53,894 nt of DNA from IMG/VR virus record IMGVR_UViG_3300050119_000052, positions 1-53,894 of that record; one strand, given 5' to 3'. How positions within the stretch are numbered: the first letter of the stretch is position 1; each line of letters begins with the position of its first letter. A program made the translations under genes and the position numbers. The notes under the pieces are model-generated. The model saw only the letters and a program-made list of their open reading frames with translations. It had not been told where the DNA came from and did no database searches. The stretch comes from a virus. Shown one piece after another: positions 3,189-48,441 of this stretch.

Positions 3189-4118
3189 GTGGCGTTCCCA
3201 ACGCCGGCCGTCGTCCCCCCGACTCTGTCCGCGTGGCAGTTCCAATACGCCGGGCTGACGTTCGGGCACGGGCAGCCGATCAAGATAGCGCAAGTCACCG
3301 GCATCGGTGACCTCGCCGTGATCCGCACAGGCGACCTGTCCAGGTCGAGGGACCATGGGGAACTCATCGGCCTCGACCTCTACGGTGGCCGTGACATCAG
3401 CATCGACCTCGAAGCGGAAGACGCCGGGTCCGGTGTGCAAGCGACCCTGCTCACACTGGCCGCCGCGACCGTCGTGGGTGCGACCACGGAACAGCCCCTG
3501 TGGTTCCAGGTCACCGGCTACCCGCTGCTGTGCGTCATGTGCCGGCCCCGTAAGCGGACCGCCCCGTGGGATGTGGGGTATCAGATCGGGAAGGTCGGCG
3601 TCGTGTCGACGCAGTTCCACGCCACCGACCCCCGCCTGTACGCGGCCACACTGACCGCGACTGTCGGCTTGGCGAGCCCGACCACAGGGGCGACGTTCCC
3701 GGTGACGTTCCCGATGACGTTCGGCACCGTCGCCCCGTCCGGGGTCACGGTCACCAACGCGGGCAACACCGAAACGCGCCCAGTGCTGGTCATCACCGGC
3801 CCGGTCACGAACCCGTCGGTCGCGAATTCGACCATCACGGGCGCTCCGACGTTGCAGTTCAGCAACCCGAATCAGGTCGGCTACACGGTCAATTCTGGGG
3901 ACCAGCTGGTCATCGACACTGATACGCATTCGATTCTGTATTACGTCGGGGGGGTGTCGTCGGGGTCCGCCCCGGCGTCCCGCGGGGGCTGGTTGGTGTC
4001 GGGTTCGACGTGGTGGGATCTGCCGCCGGGTGCGTCGCTGATTCAGTTCCTGTCGCAGGACTCCGCATCCGTCGCCGGAACGGTCCAAATAATTTGGGCT
4101 TCGGCGTATCAGCTATGA
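3189..4118 (+). CDS. Distal tail protein (Dit-like)
   Basis: This 309-residue protein starts at GTG one base after the tape measure stop. Gene position immediately after the tape measure, size, and a two-part all-beta sequence (N-terminal FQYAGLTFGHGQPIKI, C-terminal carbohydrate-binding-like sheet with Gly/Ser loops) fit the siphovirus Dit family that forms the ring at the tail tip. Its last codons overlap the next start as ATGA, which implies translational coupling. No catalytic motif is seen. Confidence 0.75.
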   Translation: MAFPTPAVVPPTLSAWQFQYAGLTFGHGQPIKIAQVTGIGDLAVIRTGDLSRSRDHGELIGLDLYGGRDISIDLEAEDAGSGVQATLLTLAAATVVGATTEQPLWFQVTGYPLLCVMCRPRKRTAPWDVGYQIGKVGVVSTQFHATDPRLYAATLTATVGLASPTTGATFPVTFPMTFGTVAPSGVTVTNAGNTETRPVLVITGPVTNPSVANSTITGAPTLQFSNPNQVGYTVNSGDQLVIDTDTHSILYYVGGVSSGSAPASRGGWLVSGSTWWDLPPGASLIQFLSQDSASVAGTVQIIWASAYQL

Positions 4119-5296
4119 GTATCCGCGTCAACGACGACGGCGACCCGAACACCATCACCTACCTCTTCACCGATCTCCATGGGAATCGCATCGAAGAACT
4201 ACCCATCACCGGGGTCACGTTCAGCCTCGCCTTGAACGCCTCCGGGCCGTTCGCCGGTTCGCTGAACATCGAAGACCCTCGAGTCCAAGCATTGGACTGG
4301 CAGGCGGCGACAGCACCGAACCTCGCGCAGGTGTGGGTCGACATCAACGGGACCCTCGTCTACGGGGGGATCGTCCAGGAACGCACCTACGACATGCCCT
4401 CCGGGACCGTCGCGATCAAGGGCACCGACCATTACGGGTACCTGATCCAGCGGTTGCAGGCGCAGGACTACTCCACGGTGTGGGCCACGACCCCGTTCGG
4501 GGCCGCGCAGATCGCGTACACGGTGATCACGGATGCGCTCGCTGTCGCGGACTCTCTGCCGCTGTCGGTGACGACCCCGGCGGCGACACCGTCCCAGTAC
4601 GGGATCACGTTGGCGGCGCCGATCAGTCAGCGCATGACGGTCGATTCGATCATCAATCAGGTGGCGGTGTTGGGGTGGCTGGTGGGTTTCGACTACGCCA
4701 TCGACGTCAAATACGTGGCCGGTGTCCCGACCGCGACGTTGACGCTCTCCTACCCGCGGCGGGGCCGGGTCGCTGGCACCACAGGTTTGGTCATCGACAC
4801 CCAGTCGGCGCTCGCGTTCACGTTCGACGAGTCCGGCACGGCTCAGGCCACCAGCGTCACCGAGGTCGCGACGGGGTCCGGTGGTGTCGCGACCACGGGG
4901 CAGTGGACGGCGGCCAACACGGTCGGGTATCCGCTGCTGGAGCGGGTCGGGTCGCACGCGTCGTTCTCGTCGGCGGCGATCCCACAAACCGTCCTCGACG
5001 CTTATGTGGCGAACGATTTGGCGTTGTCGGCGTATCCGGTGGTGACCCCGCAAGTGACGATGCCGATGTTCGCTGAGCCCGCGATCGGGGAGTGGATCGT
5101 CGGTGATGATGTGCGGATGCTGGTCGCGAAGACGTTGGGTGCGGGTCCGCCGCCGAATCCGCGGTTCCCGGCTGGGATGGACTTCTATTGGCGGATCACC
5201 CGCGCTGATGTGACCGTGCCAGCCGAAGGCATCCCCACGGTGGCGTTCACGTTCAACATGCCGCCGTCGTCGACGCCGCAGCGGCCACCGCAATAG
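4115..5296 (+). CDS. Minor tail protein, Tal/gp27-like hub
   Basis: This 393-residue protein begins with ATG in a 4-base overlap with the Dit-like gene. The order tape measure, Dit, this gene is the standard tail-tip order, in which the second protein is the tail-associated hub that anchors fibres. The sequence is beta-rich and ends in a Pro/Ser tail (PPSSTPQRPPQ). The reading frame extends 35 codons upstream, but the ATGA junction is the better start. It is followed directly by a minus-strand stem-loop element of the GNCACCCA family. Confidence 0.7.
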   Translation: MSIRVNDDGDPNTITYLFTDLHGNRIEELPITGVTFSLALNASGPFAGSLNIEDPRVQALDWQAATAPNLAQVWVDINGTLVYGGIVQERTYDMPSGTVAIKGTDHYGYLIQRLQAQDYSTVWATTPFGAAQIAYTVITDALAVADSLPLSVTTPAATPSQYGITLAAPISQRMTVDSIINQVAVLGWLVGFDYAIDVKYVAGVPTATLTLSYPRRGRVAGTTGLVIDTQSALAFTFDESGTAQATSVTEVATGSGGVATTGQWTAANTVGYPLLERVGSHASFSSAAIPQTVLDAYVANDLALSAYPVVTPQVTMPMFAEPAIGEWIVGDDVRMLVAKTLGAGPPPNPRFPAGMDFYWRITRADVTVPAEGIPTVAFTFNMPPSSTPQRPPQ

Positions 5297-5299
5297 GGA

Positions 5300-5367
5300 A
5301 CACTCAGCGGAGACGCCCGTCTGCATCCTGGGTGACGAAACAAATCTGGGGCATCTCCGCTGAGTGC
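5300..5367 (-). repeat. GNCACCCA stem-loop element, type C, copy 1
   Basis: Read on the minus strand this 68-base element is a 20-base arm (GCACTCAGCGGAGATGCCCC), then AGATTTGTTTC, GTCACCCA, GGATGCAGAC and a 19-base return arm. It obeys the same rule as the arrays at 22142-23985: unpaired C, A-N9-C, core, N9-C. The arms pair over about 17 of 19 positions. A TAGACT box (5375-5380 on the complementary strand) lies 7 bases upstream of the element in its own sense, as in the other two type C copies, and could be a -10 hexamer. It fills the gap between two tail genes. Confidence 0.85.
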
Positions 5368-5416
5368 CGCCCACAGTCTAACTGACTGAGCCGCGCAACC
5401 CAAAGGGGGACTTGGA

Positions 5417-6292
5417 ATGCCTGGTGTTTCGCCGCCAAACAACGAGAAATTCTTTGCGCTGCTCGGCGGCATGCAAAAGCAATTGCAAGCCATGAGCACC
5501 CAGCAGCAGCAAGCGATCACGAACGCGCTCGGGCAGGTGATCATCAACATCGGTTTGGTGCCCGGCTCGGACCCGGCCCGATATGGCATTCAATTTCTTG
5601 ATCCGAGTTCGGGTACCGAGATCGCGTTTTTAGGGGAAGGCACGTCTGCGGCGTTGTCGCTGTTGTTGGCCAACGATGGCAGTTTGACGATGAAGTCGAC
5701 TGCGGGCACGACGGTGCTGTATGCGGGTCAGGCGGCGATCCCCGACGGCAGTGGTCGCCTGCAAGAGGTCTTCGAGTTGTACCGCGACGACGGCTCGATA
5801 GCCCTGGCGCTAGGTGACTTCGGGACCGTCTACGACCACGCCCACCAACAGGCACTGCAGTGGTACGACCGCAGCGGCCGCATCGTGCTCGCCGATGACA
5901 CGACGAGCGCTCACGGCCTCGCGGCTCCACATCTGGCAACCAGCGGAACGCTTGTCAATACCAATACCTCAACGTGGCCAGCGACGACCAGCTCGGGCTT
6001 CACGACAATCGCCAACGGTGAAGTAGAACTACACAATCCGAAACTCAAATGGACGATCACGTTGATGGCGGATTCGGGGGTGACGGCCGAATTCCAGATG
6101 CTCATCAACGGCACCCAGATCGGCACCACGCAAACCGTCACAAGTGGCTTCTCGACATGGACGGCGACCAACCAGTCGCTTGGCGGCCTGCTACCCGGTG
6201 GTACCTACCTTGTGGAACTTCAAGCCAAGGTAACTGCTGGCAGCGGATCAGCTCGCGCGCAATGCCTGCAAATCACCGGCGATCAGTCCTAG
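5417..6292 (+). CDS. Minor tail protein
   Basis: This 291-residue protein is preceded by AAAGGGGGAC, a strong ribosome site nine bases before ATG. An N-terminal Gln-rich helix (residues 10-40) is followed by beta-rich sequence with GTSAALSLLLANDGSLTMKS, typical of collar or tip proteins with repeated sheets. The last 90 residues look like a separate beta-sandwich. It lies among tail-tip genes and is the first gene after a minus-strand stem-loop element. The family is not recognised precisely. Confidence 0.65.
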   Translation: MPGVSPPNNEKFFALLGGMQKQLQAMSTQQQQAITNALGQVIINIGLVPGSDPARYGIQFLDPSSGTEIAFLGEGTSAALSLLLANDGSLTMKSTAGTTVLYAGQAAIPDGSGRLQEVFELYRDDGSIALALGDFGTVYDHAHQQALQWYDRSGRIVLADDTTSAHGLAAPHLATSGTLVNTNTSTWPATTSSGFTTIANGEVELHNPKLKWTITLMADSGVTAEFQMLINGTQIGTTQTVTSGFSTWTATNQSLGGLLPGGTYLVELQAKVTAGSGSARAQCLQITGDQS

Positions 6293-21265: not shown

Positions 21266-21673
21266 CTAGGATGCCACCTCAATCGATGTCCGCTTTGTAC
21301 GCCATTCCCTCAGGTCGACCACAGAACCATTCGCTAGGTAATCGAAGGGTTGCTGGTTCGAGTCCAGCCGGGGGAGCACACCCGTCGAGTCGGGCGGCGG
21401 CGTGGTGCCATTGGGGCGTGAGGTCATGAAGCGCCAGATCGGAATCTGGAGCAGCCTGGCGAGACGGTCCAGGTCGTCTACGTCGAGCGCCTGGTCAGCC
21501 GTGCTGATGCGCCGACTCCAATAGGACTGCGAGTTGCCGAGCAGCTTCGGCAATCTGTTGATCGTGATCTTTGCTTTTGCGAGTTCCGAGCGCACTTCGG
21601 TGGCAACGCGCCCGCGGGCGCTCGACCGATCGGGCATCGGAACGACGTTGCTCATACCATCATTGTTCGTCAT
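21266..21673 (-). CDS. Immunity repressor with attP inside the gene
   Basis: The 135-residue product (start MTNNDGMSN) has a helix-turn-helix of the XRE type (AKITINRLPKLLGNSQSYWS, about residues 33-52, with support helices to 82). Residues 99-112 (VLPRLDSNQQPFDY) are simply the antisense translation of a tRNA-Asn 3' half, which is attP. Integration would cut the gene there and produce a repressor of about 100 residues. The ATG lies seven bases past TATATT, so a leaderless start is preferred over the longer frame from 21736. The viral form ends in IEVAS, a possible degradation tag. Confidence 0.85.
   Translation of the reverse strand: MTNNDGMSNVVPMPDRSSARGRVATEVRSELAKAKITINRLPKLLGNSQSYWSRRISTADQALDVDDLDRLARLLQIPIWRFMTSRPNGTTPPPDSTGVLPRLDSNQQPFDYLANGSVVDLREWRTKRTSIEVAS
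21339..21377 (+). other. attP core, 3' half of tRNA-Asn
   Basis: TAATCGAAGGGTT is followed by the T-arm GCTGGTTCGAGTCCAGC and the acceptor CGGGGGA. From memory this equals the actinobacterial tRNA-Asn(GTT) sequence from within the anticodon loop to the 3' end. No 5' half is present, so it is not a functional tRNA gene. It adjoins int and sits inside the repressor, so it is read as the crossover core that restores the host tRNA on integration. Confidence 0.85.
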
Positions 21674-21679
21674 GCGGTC

Positions 21680-21708
21680 AATATAGCCCCTCACCGGATA
21701 CTTGCCAA
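21680..21708 (-). promoter_or_regulatory. Repressor promoter (leaderless)
   Basis: TTGGCA and TATATT are 17 bases apart on the minus strand. TATATT-GACCGC-ATG places +1 at or next to the repressor start. The arrangement mirrors the divergent cro promoter. Confidence 0.75.
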
Positions 21709-21758
21709 GGAAGGTGATTGACAATCTCCTGTCCATGGGGATGTTAGTCGCTCAAGGG

Positions 21759-21787
21759 TTGACACAAGCCCATCATGCGGCTAACTT
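21759..21787 (+). promoter_or_regulatory. Early rightward promoter (leaderless)
   Basis: TTGACA and TAACTT are 17 bases apart. TAACTT-GACCAC-ATG puts +1 at the cro start codon. This is the probable lytic early promoter and target of the repressor; no operator palindrome is obvious in the 21674-21793 interval. Confidence 0.8.
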
Positions 21788-21793
21788 GACCAC

Positions 21794-22027
21794 ATGGCAA
21801 CCAACACCACCGCTGCGCGGGTAGCTGGGAAGGTCCGAGCCGCTCTCGCAGAAGCGCGGGTATCGCGCCAGTCCATCGCCGACGCGCTTGGAATCTCACT
21901 CTCGGCCATCACCCGGCGCCTCAACGCTGAGATCCCATTCGATGTGGCCGAGCTGGACAAGATCGCCGAGCGCCTCGACCTTCCGATGAATGCGCTGATC
22001 GTGACGCCAGATCAGGTGGCGTCGTGA
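21794..22027 (+). CDS. Cro-like helix-turn-helix regulator
   Basis: The 77-residue protein is a single XRE-type domain: VSRQSIADALGISLSAITRRL forms the helix-turn-helix (about residues 24-43), followed by the stabilising helices of the fold. It is divergent from the repressor with mirrored promoters, the classical Cro position. Its C-terminus QVAS matches the VAS end of the viral repressor. It is the first gene of the rightward early operon. Confidence 0.85.
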   Translation: MATNTTAARVAGKVRAALAEARVSRQSIADALGISLSAITRRLNAEIPFDVAELDKIAERLDLPMNALIVTPDQVAS

Positions 22028-22141: not shown

Positions 22142-22259
22142 CCCCACCACGCCAAGACGGCGACGTCACCCAGAGGTCCAGCGCGTGGTGGGGCCAAAAC
22201 TTCCAGCTTCCCCGGCAGCCAACCGGAACACGACACCCAACGGCGACTCGCTGCCGGGG
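22142..22259 (+). repeat. Stem-loop array I (two GNCACCCA elements)
   Basis: Element 1 (22143-22192) has type A arms, CCCACCACGCC and GCGTGGTGGG, and holds AAGACGGCGAC, GTCACCCA, GAGGTCCAGC. Element 2 (22210-22259) has type B arms, CCCCGGCAGCC and GCTGCCGGGG, and holds AACCGGAACAC, GACACCCA, ACGGCGACTC. Each is exactly 50 bases with a 10-11 bp perfect stem and a 30-base loop. The array is preceded by ATGACC and followed by GGGGGAACAC-ATG of the next gene. The whole stretch is also open in the frame of that gene, but low complexity and the repeat rule argue against coding. Confidence 0.9.
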
Positions 22260-22282
22260 ACCACTACTCAGCGGGGGAACAC

Positions 22283-22756
22283 ATGACCGGATTCAAAGAA
22301 ATCGTAGGCGACGTGCTGGAACACAGCGCCCGCAACGACCCCAACGAACTCGCAGAAGAGATCATGGGTCGGCTCACCCTGCCGCAGATCCGTGAAGGGC
22401 TAGCGCTCGCCCTCCCGGAGTACGTCCGACACGCGTTCCATCGCATCACCTACACCCCCGACCCTGACCCGTCTCGGCGAGTCAGGCAGGCGGCGGGGGC
22501 GTGGGATCGGCACAAGCAGCTCCTCGCTGTCCGCAAGCTGGGGTTGGAGGACTGGAAGCCGTTCGGGGAGTTCACCGCTGCGGATTGCACTGCGGCGGCG
22601 GAGTTGCGGCGGTTGAAGGCGTCGGAGTCGACGGCGCGAGCGGTCAAGTTCGACGCGACGGCTGAGGCTGTTGTGGCTGCGGGTGTCGCGTGTGTCGCGG
22701 ACCTGCCTGCTGATGTGCTTCTCGGTTTGTGGGGTAGCCATGACCTCGGCGAATAA
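22283..22756 (+). CDS. Early-region protein of unknown function between arrays I and II
   Basis: The 157-residue protein starts at ATG behind GGGGGAAC, directly after array I; the frame is open 53 codons further upstream through the array, which I exclude. The sequence is helical. The segment KLGLEDWKPFGEFTAADC followed by ELRRLKASESTARAVKFDATAEA resembles a common actinophage early hypothetical family. Its end overlaps an ATGACC that opens array II. No function is recognised. Confidence 0.7.
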   Translation: MTGFKEIVGDVLEHSARNDPNELAEEIMGRLTLPQIREGLALALPEYVRHAFHRITYTPDPDPSRRVRQAAGAWDRHKQLLAVRKLGLEDWKPFGEFTAADCTAAAELRRLKASESTARAVKFDATAEAVVAAGVACVADLPADVLLGLWGSHDLGE

Positions 22757-22761
22757 GACCT

Positions 22762-23048
22762 CCCCGGCAGCCAGACCGCCTACGTCACCCACAAGGGCAC
22801 CGCTGCCGGGGACCCAAACCACCGCCACGCCACGCTGGTCGCGTCACCCACATCTGGTTCGCGTGGCGGTCCTATTCGACCCCGGCAGCCAAAGCCGCGC
22901 CGTCACCCATGTCGTGGGCGCTGCCGGGGTCCATATTCCCCCACCACGCCAGAGGTCGACCGTCACCCAACGCCCACACGCGTGGTGGGTTCACACGTCC
23001 CCGGCAGCCAGCCCGCAGCCGTCACCCAGACGAGGCACGCTGCCGGGG
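22762..23048 (+). repeat. Stem-loop array II (five GNCACCCA elements, B-A-B-A-B)
   Basis: Elements are 22762-22811 (B), 22821-22870 (A), 22880-22929 (B), 22940-22989 (A) and 22999-23048 (B), each exactly 50 bases, spaced by 9, 9, 10 and 9 variable bases. Variable N9 pairs are GACCGCCTA/CAAGGGCAC, CGCTGGTCG/CATCTGGTT, AAGCCGCGC/TGTCGTGGG, GAGGTCGAC/ACGCCCACA and GCCCGCAGC/GACGAGGCA. All five cores are GTCACCCA. The A stem at 22821 has compensatory changes (ACCGCCACGC with GCGTGGCGGT), which supports base pairing. The interval is otherwise empty and ends 22 bases before the IS110-like gene. Confidence 0.95.
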
Positions 23049-23070
23049 ACCTCACTCATCGGGGGACCAC

Positions 23071-23805
23071 ATGACTGACCTCTACGACCCACTCCTCGGC
23101 AACCTCGCCGCCACAGTCGACGACCTCGAGATGGTTCGGAAAGCCGCCGAGAACCGTCTACGGCAGTTGACTAGGACCGGCGTCGACAAAGACGGCACCT
23201 CACGCGGCTTCGGACTACCCGAAGACCACCTATCCGTCCAAGCGGCCACAGTCATCGTCGACGGACTCAAGCGAGTCGAACACCAAGCGATCCTGCTGTT
23301 ACAGCGCCAACTCCGCACCCACCCACTACACCCGTGGATCAAGGCCCAAAACGGGCTGGGTGAGAAAACCGTCGCCCGACTGCTCGCCGCGATCCAGGAC
23401 CCGTACTGGAACGACCGACACGACCGCCCCCGCACCGTTGGTGAGCTGTTCAAGTTCTGCGGTGTCGCCGGCCCCGGTCAGCGTAAGCGGAAGGGTGAAC
23501 GGGTCACGTGGTCGCCTGAGGCGCGGATGCGATTGCACGTGATCATCGAGCCGATCGTGAAGAATCGGCGGTCGCCCTATCGGGCGGTTTACGACCAGGC
23601 GCGGGTCAAGTACGCGGAGAAGACGCACACGGAGGTGTGTGTGCGGTGCGGCCCGGCGGGTAAGCCTGCGCTGGTTGGGTCGCCGTGGCCGCCGGCTCAT
23701 CAGCATGCGGCCGCGATGCGCCTGGTGAAGCGTGCAGTTCTGCGCGGGCTGTGGGAAGAATCCCGCCGGTTGCATGGTGCCGACGAACTGAAGGTCGCAG
23801 CATGA
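23071..23805 (+). CDS. Stand-alone IS110 Transposase_20-like protein
   Basis: The 244-residue protein starts at ATG behind GGGGGACC, right after array II. Residues 89-110 form a helix-hairpin-helix (QNGLGEKTVARLLAAIQD), followed by RTVGELFKFCGVA, RKGERVTWSPEARMRL and KNRRSPYRAVYDQARVKYA, the order of the C-terminal Transposase_20 domain of IS110 transposases. The N-terminal 88 residues are helical and lack the DEDD RuvC-like domain, and the SG motif holding the catalytic serine is not seen. A CVRC-x15-HQH set could bind zinc. It ends KVAA. There are no IS ends. It may bind the neighbouring stem-loops; that role is inferred. Confidence 0.75.
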   Translation: MTDLYDPLLGNLAATVDDLEMVRKAAENRLRQLTRTGVDKDGTSRGFGLPEDHLSVQAATVIVDGLKRVEHQAILLLQRQLRTHPLHPWIKAQNGLGEKTVARLLAAIQDPYWNDRHDRPRTVGELFKFCGVAGPGQRKRKGERVTWSPEARMRLHVIIEPIVKNRRSPYRAVYDQARVKYAEKTHTEVCVRCGPAGKPALVGSPWPPAHQHAAAMRLVKRAVLRGLWEESRRLHGADELKVAA

Positions 23806-23816
23806 CCACTCAAACT

Positions 23817-23985
23817 CCCGCCACGCCAGCCATCTGCCGACACCCAGCTCTCTCGCGCGTGGCGGGGCTCAACTACCCCGGCAGCCATGGGCCTGGCGTC
23901 ACCCAAGCGATGACCGCTGCCGGGGTCCTAAACGAATCGTCGCGCCAAGTCCCAGCCGTCACCCATCAGAGGGCCGCCCGTCGGA
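23817..23985 (+). repeat. Stem-loop array III (three GNCACCCA elements, last degenerate)
   Basis: Element 8 (23817-23827 arm to 23866, type A with CCCGCCACGCC/GCGTGGCGGG) holds AGCCATCTGCC, GACACCCA, GCTCTCTCGC. Element 9 (23876-23925, type B) holds ATGGGCCTGGC, GTCACCCA, AGCGATGACC. Element 10 (23936-23985) keeps the loop rule (AAGTCCCAGCC, GTCACCCA, TCAGAGGGCC), but its arms pair at only 6 of 10 positions. The array opens with ATGACC overlapping the IS110-like stop and ends just before the next start. A 69-codon frame spans it with ATGA overlaps at both ends. Confidence 0.85.
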
Positions 23986-24007: not shown

Positions 24008-24631
24008 ATGACCAGCACCGAAGAGGCCAGCGGCGATCTGCGACCGTGCCCGCGCTGCAATGGACGGGGGACCGTTCACAGCAAAGAGGTTGTCCACGGC
24101 ACGCTCTACGCGGCCACTCGTCTCCGCTGCCGATGCGATCTCTGCTCTGCTGCTCGCCGGGATTACGACTCAGCTCGATTGGGTCACCGGATCCGGTCTC
24201 GCGCAGAGCAGAAGCAGGCGCGACTCGAGTCGGCCGGAGAGTTCATCACCCTTCACCAGTCAGGCCTGACGATCGCGGAGATAGCGGCCAAGGTGAACCG
24301 GTCGATCAACTTCGTTGCTGGCGCGTTGCATGAAGCGGGATATCAGCCGCGGCGGGGTATTACCGCGACTTTCCTCGAGCACGGAACCCGCGCGTACAAG
24401 GTCCGCACAGGCTGCCGCTGCGATCTGTGCCGCGCTGCCGTCACCCGCGAGAAGAAGGAAGCGCGCCAGCGGCGCCACGAAGCCATGCTCGCTGGCCAAG
24501 TGAACCCGCCGCACGGATCGACCAGCACCTACAGCAACTACACCTGCCGCTGCGATCTGTGCCGCGCTGCGTGGTCGGTCCGTATGCGCGAACAACGCCA
24601 GCGCCGGAAGCCACCGAGAGGCCGGTCATGA
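24008..24631 (+). CDS. Zinc-binding protein with three CRCDLC motifs and a central helix-turn-helix
   Basis: The 207-residue protein follows array III. It has CPRCNGRG near residue 14 and three copies of the pattern HGT..Y...CRCDLCRAA (about residues 30-50, 125-145 and 175-195), each with three Cys suited to zinc. Between copies one and two, LTIAEIAAKVNRSINFVAGAL is a helix-turn-helix. The repeated Cys module is familiar from actinophage early proteins of unknown role. Nucleic-acid binding is likely, and its position makes it a second candidate partner of the stem-loop arrays. Confidence 0.7.
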   Translation: MTSTEEASGDLRPCPRCNGRGTVHSKEVVHGTLYAATRLRCRCDLCSAARRDYDSARLGHRIRSRAEQKQARLESAGEFITLHQSGLTIAEIAAKVNRSINFVAGALHEAGYQPRRGITATFLEHGTRAYKVRTGCRCDLCRAAVTREKKEARQRRHEAMLAGQVNPPHGSTSTYSNYTCRCDLCRAAWSVRMREQRQRRKPPRGRS

Positions 24632-43072: not shown

Positions 43073-44314
43073 ATGCAGGTTCTGACCAGGGATCGGCGCT
43101 TCGAAGAGGTCCGTTCGGGCACCTGGAATCCGGCTCAGCAGTGGGGTTCGACTGTGCCGCCCACCAACGGGCAGGCGGGTGGCGTCGCGGCCTCGGGGAC
43201 GACGGTGTCGGAGAAGCACGCGATGCAGCTCGCGGCGGCGTGGGGGTCGGTGTCGATCATCTGCGACGCGTTGGCGACGCTACAGATCCGGCAGTACAAG
43301 CTGGTGTCGAGTAGCGACGTCCCGGTGCAGATGGACCCGTCGCAGGTCATCGCGGAGCCGTGGCCCGAGATCAATCAGCTGGATTTCATCACCCAGGGCA
43401 CCTATTCGCTTTTGCAGCGGGGGAATCTGTTCGGCAACATCACCGCACGGGACCCGAACACCCTTTACCCGACGCAGGTGCAGCTCGTCCACCCTGATCA
43501 TGCGCGGGTTCGCCGCGCCGGCCAGGGGCAGATCGAGGTGTCCTACTTCAACAAGGTCGCGAACCCCGACAATGTGACCCGGGCGATGGCGCTGTCCGTC
43601 CCTGAGGGACTGGTCGGGTTGAACCCGATCGAGTACATGCGTAACTCGTTCGGGCTGGGTTTGGCGCAGGACGGCATGAGTGGTTCGTTCTTCGCGAACT
43701 CGGCTAGGCCCGATGGTGTCCTCCAAGTCGAGGGTGATCTGGACCCGGACGAAACGAAGGCGATGCTCGCCGCGTGGAACTCCTCCCATCAGGGCATCGA
43801 GGCCGCGTACGGCGTCGGTGTGTTGACGAGCGGCGCCAAGTGGCAACCGATCACGATGAACCTCGCGGACGCCCAGTTCTTGCAGCAGATGCAGTATTCG
43901 GCGTCGGTGATTTCCGGGATGATTTACCGGGTTCCGCCGCACATGCTCGGCATCGTCGACAAGTCCACGTCGTGGGGTGCCGGCATCGAGCAGCAGGAAC
44001 AAGGGTTCATCACCAACACCATCGGGATCTGGCTGGCCCGCTGGGAAGACTTGATGACGTCGTGGCTGCCACCAAGGCAGTTCGTGATGTTCGACCTGAG
44101 CAAGCGGCTCCGTGGTGACACGTTGCAGCGCTGGTCGATGTATCAGATGGCGCGGGTTATCGGTGCGATGAACAACCTTCAGATCATCAAGGCTGAGGGT
44201 TTGGAGATTCCGACGGACCCGGCGGTGTTGGCGACGTTGGCGGATTATGCGGCGCCGTTGAATTCGGCGCCGATGAAGCCGACGAATTCCGCAGTCGACG
44301 GAGACAAAGCGTAA
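43073..44314 (+). CDS. Portal protein (HK97 type)
   Basis: The 413-residue protein has the portal pattern: AMQLAAAWGSVSIICDALAT, a DFITQGTYSLLQRGNLFG segment, the crown-proximal IYRVPPHMLG near residue 284 and GIEQQEQGFITNTI. Position between terminase and protease is canonical. It forms the dodecameric DNA channel. Confidence 0.95.
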   Translation: MQVLTRDRRFEEVRSGTWNPAQQWGSTVPPTNGQAGGVAASGTTVSEKHAMQLAAAWGSVSIICDALATLQIRQYKLVSSSDVPVQMDPSQVIAEPWPEINQLDFITQGTYSLLQRGNLFGNITARDPNTLYPTQVQLVHPDHARVRRAGQGQIEVSYFNKVANPDNVTRAMALSVPEGLVGLNPIEYMRNSFGLGLAQDGMSGSFFANSARPDGVLQVEGDLDPDETKAMLAAWNSSHQGIEAAYGVGVLTSGAKWQPITMNLADAQFLQQMQYSASVISGMIYRVPPHMLGIVDKSTSWGAGIEQQEQGFITNTIGIWLARWEDLMTSWLPPRQFVMFDLSKRLRGDTLQRWSMYQMARVIGAMNNLQIIKAEGLEIPTDPAVLATLADYAAPLNSAPMKPTNSAVDGDKA

Positions 44315-44321
44315 TAGCAAA

Positions 44322-44389
44322 GCACCCAGCGGAGAAGCCCGAAAGGGAAATGGGTGACGTTTTGGAGATGGGGCTTCCCCGCTGAGTGC
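44322..44389 (-). repeat. GNCACCCA stem-loop element, type C, copy 2
   Basis: Minus-strand order is GCACTCAGCGGGGAAGCCCC, ATCTCCAAAAC, GTCACCCA, TTTCCCTTTC and the return arm. The arms pair at 17 of 19 positions. A TAGACT box lies 7 bases upstream in its sense. The two N9 blocks (TCTCCAAAA, TTTCCCTTT) are AT-richer than those in the arrays. It occupies the whole portal-protease gap. Confidence 0.85.
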
Positions 44390-46539: not shown

Positions 46540-46548
46540 CGCAATGGA

Positions 46549-46616
46549 GCACCCAGCGGAGAAGCCCGCACACCGACTGGGTGCCGCTCATGACCTGGGG
46601 TCTCTCCGCTGAGTGC
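46549..46616 (-). repeat. GNCACCCA stem-loop element, type C, copy 3
   Basis: Minus-strand order is GCACTCAGCGGAGAGACCCC, AGGTCATGAGC, GGCACCCA, GTCGGTGTGC and the return arm. The core differs by one base (GG instead of GT). A TAGACT box lies 8 bases upstream in its sense. It sits between the two capsid genes. The 46617-46782 stretch adds a CCGGGC/GCCCGG hairpin and the ribosome site of the second capsid gene. Confidence 0.85.
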
Positions 46617-46782
46617 CGTCCCCGAGTCTAACCACTAGTCGTTTCACCCCACGCCGGGCCTGTGCCCGGTGCGCGCCGCTGCACCCACGGGTCGCAGCAC
46701 CCGCACCGGACGTGGCGCACCACCTGGGAAATCCAGCAAACCCCCAGAGCGCACGAATGCGCCCGACGCTAGGAGAACAGCA

Positions 46783-48441
46783 ATGGCAGACAAGAAGGAG
46801 CCGACGCTCCTCGAACTTTTGAACGAGCGCCGCCAGAAGGCGTTCGAAGCATGGAGCGGTGAGATCGGCAGGCGGGAGACCGCTGATACCGATTTCGAGG
46901 CTCGCCGCAACGCTACCGACGAGGCTGTGCACCCGACCGACGACGAGGTGACGGCGCACCGTGACGCGCAGGCCGCGTTCCGGGTCCGCTCGGACGAGGC
47001 TGAGGTGGAGTTGCGCGAGTTCGACAAGCGCATCGACGAACAGGGTGAGATCGAGACCCGCCGCGCCGCCGCCGCCGCAGCCAGCAAGGGCAACGCCGAG
47101 GTCGAGTCGGAGCCGCTGACCTATCGCCGCGACAACGCCCACGTACGGTCCTACTACGCCGACCTCGCCGTGGCGATGGTCGACGGGGTGACCTTGTCAC
47201 GCAACAACAAGACCGAGGCCCTGACCCGCCTGAACCGGCACGCCGCCGAGATGGACGTCGAGATCCCGAAGCGGATCAAGGCGGCCGAGGCCCGCGCCGT
47301 CGCCCGGTTCGCGGAGGCCGAGTCCCGGTCCGTGTCGCGCCGCAACGGCGTCACCATGGAAGATGTTCGCCCGCTCGCCTACGACCCGTTCCAGCGGTCA
47401 CGGCGTGGCGCTGAACTGGAGGAGCGGGTCACCCCGAACCGGCAGGACGGCTACGGCGGGTACCTGATCCCACCGTTGTGGCTGCCCGAGGACTTCATCC
47501 CCGGCCTGCGTGCTCAGGGTGTCGCCCGGGACCTGTGCCGGCAAATGGACTTGCCCGCCGGCACCGACAGCATCAATATCCCGAAGTTGGCGAACCTGAC
47601 CGCGGTTGGGTATCAGCAGGCGGACAACTCCGGTGTCGTGACGCAGGACTGGACGGACACGTTCGTTCAGGCCAATGTGAAGACCGCCGCGGGGCAGTCC
47701 GACGTCGCGTTGCAGCTGTTGGAGCAGTCCCCGAACGGCATCACCGACGAGGTGATCACCACTGACCTGCTGGCCGCGTACAACCAGTTCGTTGATCAGC
47801 AGGTGATCTCCGGTGACGGTGTGTCGACGGGGCAGCTCAACGGCGGCCACATCCTCGGGATCTACCCGTCGAGCAACTGGGCGAACACGAACGGCGTGAC
47901 CTACACCGACAGCTCCCCGGCTGGTGTGCACTTCGGTGCTGGCGCGATGGGCCCGTTGGCGTCGAAGATCGCCCGGACTCGTTTCGACGTCGAGGACTTC
48001 GCGATCGTGATGCACGGTCGCCGCTGGTTCTGGTACTCCACGGCGAATGACGTCAACGGTCGCCCGCTCGGTGAGACCCTCGGAGCTGGTCGGTTCCAGG
48101 CGGCGGTCGCTGAAGAGGAACTGGCCGCCTACGGCCGGGTCGGCACCTTGCCGTACCTCGCTGACGCGCCCGTGTACATCGACAACAACATCCCGATCAC
48201 CGACACCGCTGGTGGCGGCTCGGCACAGGACATCGCGATCGGTGCCCTGTGGTCGGACCTGTGGCTGTTCATGGGCGACCTGCGGACGAACGTGTTCCGT
48301 GAGGTTCTCTCCGGCAGCCTCGGTGTCAGGTTCCAGGTCTACAACTACTTCGCGTTCCTCGCGCGGTACGGCCAGTCGATCGCTGTCGCGACCGGCTCCG
48401 GTTTCGCTCAGCCGTCCACCGGCTACGGCGACTACTTCTAA
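46783..48441 (+). CDS. HK97-fold major capsid protein 2 with scaffold domain
   Basis: The 552-residue product starts at ATG behind TAGGAGAAC. Residues 1-115 are a charged coiled-coil delta/scaffold domain (LLELLNERRQKAFEAWSGEI), residues 115-215 repeat the spacer seen in capsid 1 (RLNRHAAEM), and the HK97 fold follows from TPNRQDGYGGYLIPPLWLPE to FREVLSGSLGVRFQVYNYFA. It is the likely major capsid subunit, matured by the upstream protease. Confidence 0.9.
   Translation: MADKKEPTLLELLNERRQKAFEAWSGEIGRRETADTDFEARRNATDEAVHPTDDEVTAHRDAQAAFRVRSDEAEVELREFDKRIDEQGEIETRRAAAAAASKGNAEVESEPLTYRRDNAHVRSYYADLAVAMVDGVTLSRNNKTEALTRLNRHAAEMDVEIPKRIKAAEARAVARFAEAESRSVSRRNGVTMEDVRPLAYDPFQRSRRGAELEERVTPNRQDGYGGYLIPPLWLPEDFIPGLRAQGVARDLCRQMDLPAGTDSINIPKLANLTAVGYQQADNSGVVTQDWTDTFVQANVKTAAGQSDVALQLLEQSPNGITDEVITTDLLAAYNQFVDQQVISGDGVSTGQLNGGHILGIYPSSNWANTNGVTYTDSSPAGVHFGAGAMGPLASKIARTRFDVEDFAIVMHGRRWFWYSTANDVNGRPLGETLGAGRFQAAVAEEELAAYGRVGTLPYLADAPVYIDNNIPITDTAGGGSAQDIAIGALWSDLWLFMGDLRTNVFREVLSGSLGVRFQVYNYFAFLARYGQSIAVATGSGFAQPSTGYGDYF

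Follow-up and report, generated by a model that had tools for sequence, protein, structure and literature searches.

The window analysed here is the whole 53,894-nucleotide (nt) stretch of the IMG/VR virus record IMGVR_UViG_3300050119_000052, in which positions 22142-23985 hold an array of short hairpins interleaved with two genes, one of them, tasA, coding for a relative of the effector proteins of TIGR-Tas systems. A pattern scan with CA-N9-CGWCACCCA-N9-C returned 10 plus-strand matches at 22153-23975 and 2 more elsewhere in the window, against a mean of 0.02 in dinucleotide shuffles of the whole window. The core between the two variable blocks is GTCACCCA in eight units and GACACCCA in two, as a first-pass annotation made from the letters alone had counted, and the 9-nt blocks, hereafter spacers, are all different across the ten units, as it had also reported. 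Units 1-9 have complementary arms of 10-12 base pairs (bp), one with an outer G.U pair, around a loop of fixed geometry (12 + 8 + 10 nt), and as RNA they fold with z-scores of -2.3 to -5.0 relative to shuffles. Unit 10 (23944-23977) retains its boxes and its spacers (AGTCCCAGC and TCAGAGGGC); its arms are not complementary, and its folding (z = +0.4) is no better than that of shuffles. The array is made of nine complete stem-loops and one decayed unit, so that ten box and spacer matches remain of the ten stem-loops proposed in the first-pass annotation and the tenth stem does not. Scanned with the Rfam 15 covariance models, 22142-23985 matched no known RNA family at E values up to 1.

The layout originally described, arm-A-N9-C-core-N9-C-arm, is real as a pattern and is better parsed, after shifting the boundaries by one or two bases, as arm..CCA-N9-CG-N4-CCA-N9-CG..arm, where N4 is NCAC in the window. 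Each spacer is flanked by CCA (box C) on its 5' side and CG (box D) on its 3' side, with one box pair at the base of the stem and the other around the 4-nt inner loop; a base pair can form between the first C of each CCA and the G of the CG opposite. Such two-fold symmetry in the unit is what a symmetric protein dimer on two half-sites would need.

All units of the array lie on the plus strand in three sub-arrays, within which they are spaced about 59-67 nt apart and their arms alternate between two kinds, CCCCGGCAGC and CC[AG]CCACGC. The first sub-array, 5' of the gene at 22283-22756, comprises unit 1 (22142-22193; spacers AGACGGCGA and GAGGTCCAG) and unit 2 (22209-22260; ACCGGAACA and ACGGCGACT). 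Between that gene and tasA (23071-23805) stand unit 3 (22761-22812; GACCGCCTA and CAAGGGCAC), unit 4 (22821-22870; CGCTGGTCG and CATCTGGTT), unit 5 (22878-22931; AAGCCGCGC and TGTCGTGGG), unit 6 (22940-22989; GAGGTCGAC and ACGCCCACA) and unit 7 (22997-23050; GCCCGCAGC and GACGAGGCA). The third sub-array, 3' of tasA, holds unit 8 (23816-23867; GCCATCTGC and GCTCTCTCG) and unit 9 (23875-23926; TGGGCCTGG and AGCGATGAC), followed by the decayed unit 10.

The plus-strand gene tasA codes for 244 amino acids (aa) that match PHROG 4285, a family named 'transposase', with E = 6e-88. When searched as a single sequence against the PDB, the product retrieved TasR (9mty, E = 1.7e-8) and TasH (E = 2.3e-8) and no other entry, and a 19-member profile strengthened both matches (E = 1.2e-27 and 3e-14, respectively). 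Foldseek with an AlphaFold2 model (pLDDT 89) likewise placed TasR and TasH on top (E = 5e-8 to 2e-5), followed by the IS621 bridge-RNA recombinase (5e-4), with marginal matches to the Nop5/Prp31-type folds of box C/D small nucleolar ribonucleoproteins (E about 1-2). The product of 23071-23805 is TasA, the nuclease-less solo Nop-domain protein of the 2025 nomenclature, resembling the IS110 C-terminal part. The second gene (22283-22756, plus strand, 157 aa), which we call the partner gene, belongs to PHROG 4604 and sits between sub-arrays 1 and 2. All 21 members scanned match PHROG 4604 and none convincingly matches another family; a comparison with Pfam assigned no family, with one weak HEPN match in one member, the predicted fold matched nothing in the PDB, and the homologues found are uncharacterised phage proteins only.

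Linkage, covariation and spacer turnover in related loci

We collected 67 tasA loci: that of the window, 55 on IMG/VR contigs, three on contigs of bacterial genome assemblies or metagenome-assembled genomes, and the rest in phage records; some are near-duplicates, and the counts are therefore not fully independent. A first exact-pattern scan of IMG/VR had returned mostly chance matches, with possible true units in only about ten loci. Across the 67 loci, units cluster at tasA, with about 326 no more than 3 kb away from it and few farther off; a gene of PHROG 4604 is found just upstream of tasA in 63, which singles out the partner gene as a candidate second protein of the system. The grammar is tightly kept in 329 units, with CG as box D in 312 and CCA as box C in 323. 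When the boxes alone were required and no stem, 261 motifs occurred in 215 kb near tasA versus 14 in 752 kb elsewhere. Among these 261 motifs, which provide the unbiased test, 213 have arms that are complementary at 8 or 9 of the 9 positions, compared with mostly 1-4 (about 2) for antisense matches. In an ungapped alignment of 52 units, chosen by a stem criterion, nine of the ten stem pairs change on both sides (169 two-sided changes), and covariation reaches 0.861; shuffles give 0.194, and sliding the alignment gives no more than 0.173. The arms do covary, a point on which the first-pass annotation had let its guide-like reading hang, and the stem-independent box test agrees. Base preferences by position are the same in spacers A and B, with A or T favoured at position 1 and G or C at positions 3 and 6.

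Units also occur inside tasA in 18 loci, where adjacent spacings are multiples of three in 19 of 20 cases, versus 60 of 150 upstream of the gene, which means that the nested guide units are translated as well. Such in-frame hairpins were seen in L044/L161, L127, L135, L145, L148, L155, L156, L173 and other loci, at about +356 to +596 counted from where the tasA match begins. The 120-kb phages behind L162 (G020) and L169 (G026) carry dispersed guide-like hairpins, single or in small clusters, on both strands. Contig L109 has tandem hairpins with the same boxes, and its effector gene was not identified.

Spacer turnover is most readily seen in 26 Fromanvirus-type mycobacteriophages, whose tasA genes differ pairwise by 0.022 on average and which carry the same hairpins at the same places. 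Diversity per site is 0.00-0.11 in the arms and 0.39-0.42 in the interior, and among the 26 phages one hairpin has 15 distinct sequences and another 14. Homologous loci carry different spacers in a conserved frame, rather than the conserved blocks that would speak against guides. One spacer A is found with differing spacers B, which means that the half-guides are exchanged independently of each other. Near-identical relatives that differ almost only in their spacers constitute a natural experiment on guide turnover. In L121, L123, L125 and other Fromanvirus-type loci, the loop repeat of the second hairpin is extended and forms a small hairpin of its own (CGGC-AACTC-GCCG). Overall, tasA occurs in 76 Mycobacterium records, annotated only as 'transposase' or hypothetical.

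Identity of the locus and rival readings

Considering the box grammar, the covarying stems, the identity of TasA, the linkage and the spacer turnover together, we assign the locus to the TIGR-Tas systems, as one of solo-Nop (TasA) type with a stem-loop array and a guide mechanism, with a probability of about 0.93. The first-pass annotation had expected guides or paired recognition sites in a fixed frame, and its guide-like reading is supported here by variable spacers in a conserved frame, covarying arms and the adjoining tasA gene; it knew of no phage element with this layout, although TIGR stem-loop arrays were published in 2025. According to that study (Faure et al. 2025, PMC12045711), TIGR arrays carry two 9-nt spacers (8-12 nt in stem-loop arrays) with CCA as box C and UG as box D, and the spacers pair with opposite DNA strands; for a TasA locus of the stem-loop variant, which has palindromic arms, expression and processing to single hairpins were demonstrated. 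The window shares with these TIGR-TasA stem-loop arrays a solo Nop protein encoded next to the hairpins, two 9-nt spacers between boxes C and D, variable palindromic arms in place of edge repeats, and several sub-arrays (PMC12045711). Judged by sequence, the locus has every feature of the published stem-loop arrays that can be examined in this way; box D is CG in the window family, as opposed to UG in the TasR structure. The list of phage hosts in the 2025 paper cites a mycobacteriophage review, and its authors probably knew of such mycobacteriophage loci. The conserved partner gene, the units nested in frame in tasA and the dispersed solitary units described below go beyond the main text of that paper. 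The 2025 study, which draws mostly on metagenomes, leaves natural role, targets and spacer change as open questions. The system is here tied to dozens of sequenced Mycobacterium smegmatis phages, making it tractable and its purpose testable.

Other known systems resemble the locus in part. The dual-repeat TIGR arrays of TasR and TasH likewise have two 9-nt spacers, a fixed-length loop repeat (CG-N4-CCA) and a Nop-domain effector, whereas the window lacks edge repeats, gives each unit its own stem and encodes no nuclease domain in its effector. Box C/D small nucleolar ribonucleoproteins, with their Nop5 and Prp31 relatives, likewise combine an RNA-binding domain of Nop type with spacers framed by paired C/D boxes, but the fold matches to TasA are marginal. 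CRISPR arrays have tandem units with variable spacers too; the window differs in its split 9 + 9 nt spacers within hairpins, the lack of a common repeat and a Nop-domain instead of a Cas effector, and the CRISPR reading was rejected given that identical direct repeats, 25-40 nt spacers and cas effector or adaptation genes are all missing. IS110/IS621 elements with their bridge RNA show a related protein fold and split-guide hairpin loops, but at the window there is one guide loop per RNA and there are many RNAs per locus. An IS110 transposon was rejected because the N-terminal DEDD (RuvC-like) domain is absent and the Nop-like part uses up the 244-aa fold, and one bridge RNA bearing a target loop and a donor loop does not fit ten hairpins with one spacer pair each. 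Integron attC sites and readings as REP elements or miniature inverted-repeat transposable elements (MITEs) were considered and dropped as well.

Two rival readings deny the spacers any guiding function. The hairpins might be small MITE- or REP-like palindromes that an IS110-like transposase mobilises, with the 9-nt blocks as unconstrained filler, in line with the name transposase in PHROGs and several GenBank records, with the scatter of copies over the window and over two large phages, and with the occurrence of some copies inside genes and in frame. We consider this highly improbable, as the boxes stay fixed while the arms vary from unit to unit, the units stay put in the 26 close relatives while the spacers alone change, and the 244-aa protein aligns over its full length to TasR and TasH, leaving no room for a DEDD domain. 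Just as improbable is that the units serve as DNA or RNA sites for a regulator or partition protein, their spacers being constrained in length only. Fixed spacing, two-fold arms and a partner gene of unknown function would suit such sites, yet the arms covary and share no common sequence, the spacers are replaced blockwise while adjacent DNA barely varies, and homologues of TasA are RNA-guided according to the 2025 paper (PMC12045711).

Transcription, processing, binding rules and biological role of the TIGR-TasA system in the window are modelled on the published one. One plus-strand transcript would span the three sub-arrays, the partner gene and tasA, and cleavage in the stretches between hairpins would release short RNAs that each hold two 9-nt guide spacers between CCA and CG. 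A TasA dimer would bind one such tigRNA, whose spacers A and B would pair with opposite strands of the DNA, such that the predicted target of 18-20 bp would read as spacer A, 0-2 bp, and the reverse complement of spacer B. Because TasA has no nuclease domain, it would be expected to bind and bend this target instead of cutting it.

What weighs against a guide function is the outcome of the target searches. A comparison of 308 spacer pairs with about 2 Mb of DNA from related phages, covering four orientations and gaps of 0-2, showed no excess over mispaired controls. Eight mycobacteriophage and eight window guides, searched by BLAST in 50,697 phage records as adjacent spacers only, had no complete 18-bp match in actinophages. 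Exact IMG/VR scans with three guides (gaps 0-2) hit 6, 3 and 4 contigs, few enough for chance, the six-contig set being one homologous family matched at a gene start, and the window itself contains no self-target at ≤1 mismatch. No natural target came out of these searches in phage and IMG/VR sequences. The codon phase of related spacer variants gave a hint of wobble positions with a 2-nt gap, too weak to use.

As for its use, the TIGR-TasA system may silence or displace competing phages or other mobile elements, a role that we rate at about even odds and as the most likely one, since guide turnover is fast and no self-target is conspicuous. The same system might instead serve self-regulation or guide phage integration, which we regard as rather unlikely. 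The array does follow the repressor/cro-like region and the integrase, the 2025 paper suggests that bending by TasA could aid integrases (PMC12045711), and the spacers show, on the sense strand, a mild enrichment of ATGAC and TGATG, which resemble gene starts. However, near-perfect self-targets were not found in the window, 34 guides produced a single match at 2 mismatches in the BPBiebs31 genome (mispaired mean 0.3), and fixed self-sites are ill-suited to fast spacer turnover.

It is also possible, though we hold it only tentatively and think it unlikely, that actinophage TIGR-TasA forms a distinct two-protein sub-type, in which the partner might load, process or exchange guides, units would lie inside the tasA frame and in solitary, separately transcribed genes, and single 9-nt spacers would be swapped by a dedicated process. 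If true, RNA-guided silencing would here come with its own way of diversifying spacers, different from CRISPR adaptation.

Solitary units and neighbouring genes

Beyond the array, the minus strand carries three solitary tigRNA-like units, near 5349, 44371 and 46598, and with the ten array units they account for the 13 copies of the first-pass annotation. They have the full guide grammar and long arms in common (GCACTCAGCGG..), and are sited in gaps between structural genes: at 5293-5374 (spacers GATTTGTTT and GGATGCAGA) between the open reading frames (ORFs) 4010-5296 and 5417-6292, at 44322-44389 (TCTCCAAAA and TTTCCCTTT) 3' of the portal gene (43073-44314), and at 46548-46617 (GGTCATGAG and GTCGGTGTG) before the major head protein ORF (46669-48441). 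A TTAGACT/GTAGACT motif upstream of all three may be their promoter. Their spacers are in part unusually A+T-rich, and a target search with their guides gave no match.

The array is located downstream of the integrase and of a repressor/cro-like region, a position which suggests that it is expressed from an early transcript. Within 21266-22027, divergent repressor-like and cro-like genes flank TTGACA-N17-TAACTT (21759), a promoter-like sequence from which the array may be transcribed. Right after the array, 24008-24631 codes for a Cys-rich protein with a repeated CRCDLCRAA motif and PHROG matches of helix-turn-helix/HNH-like type.
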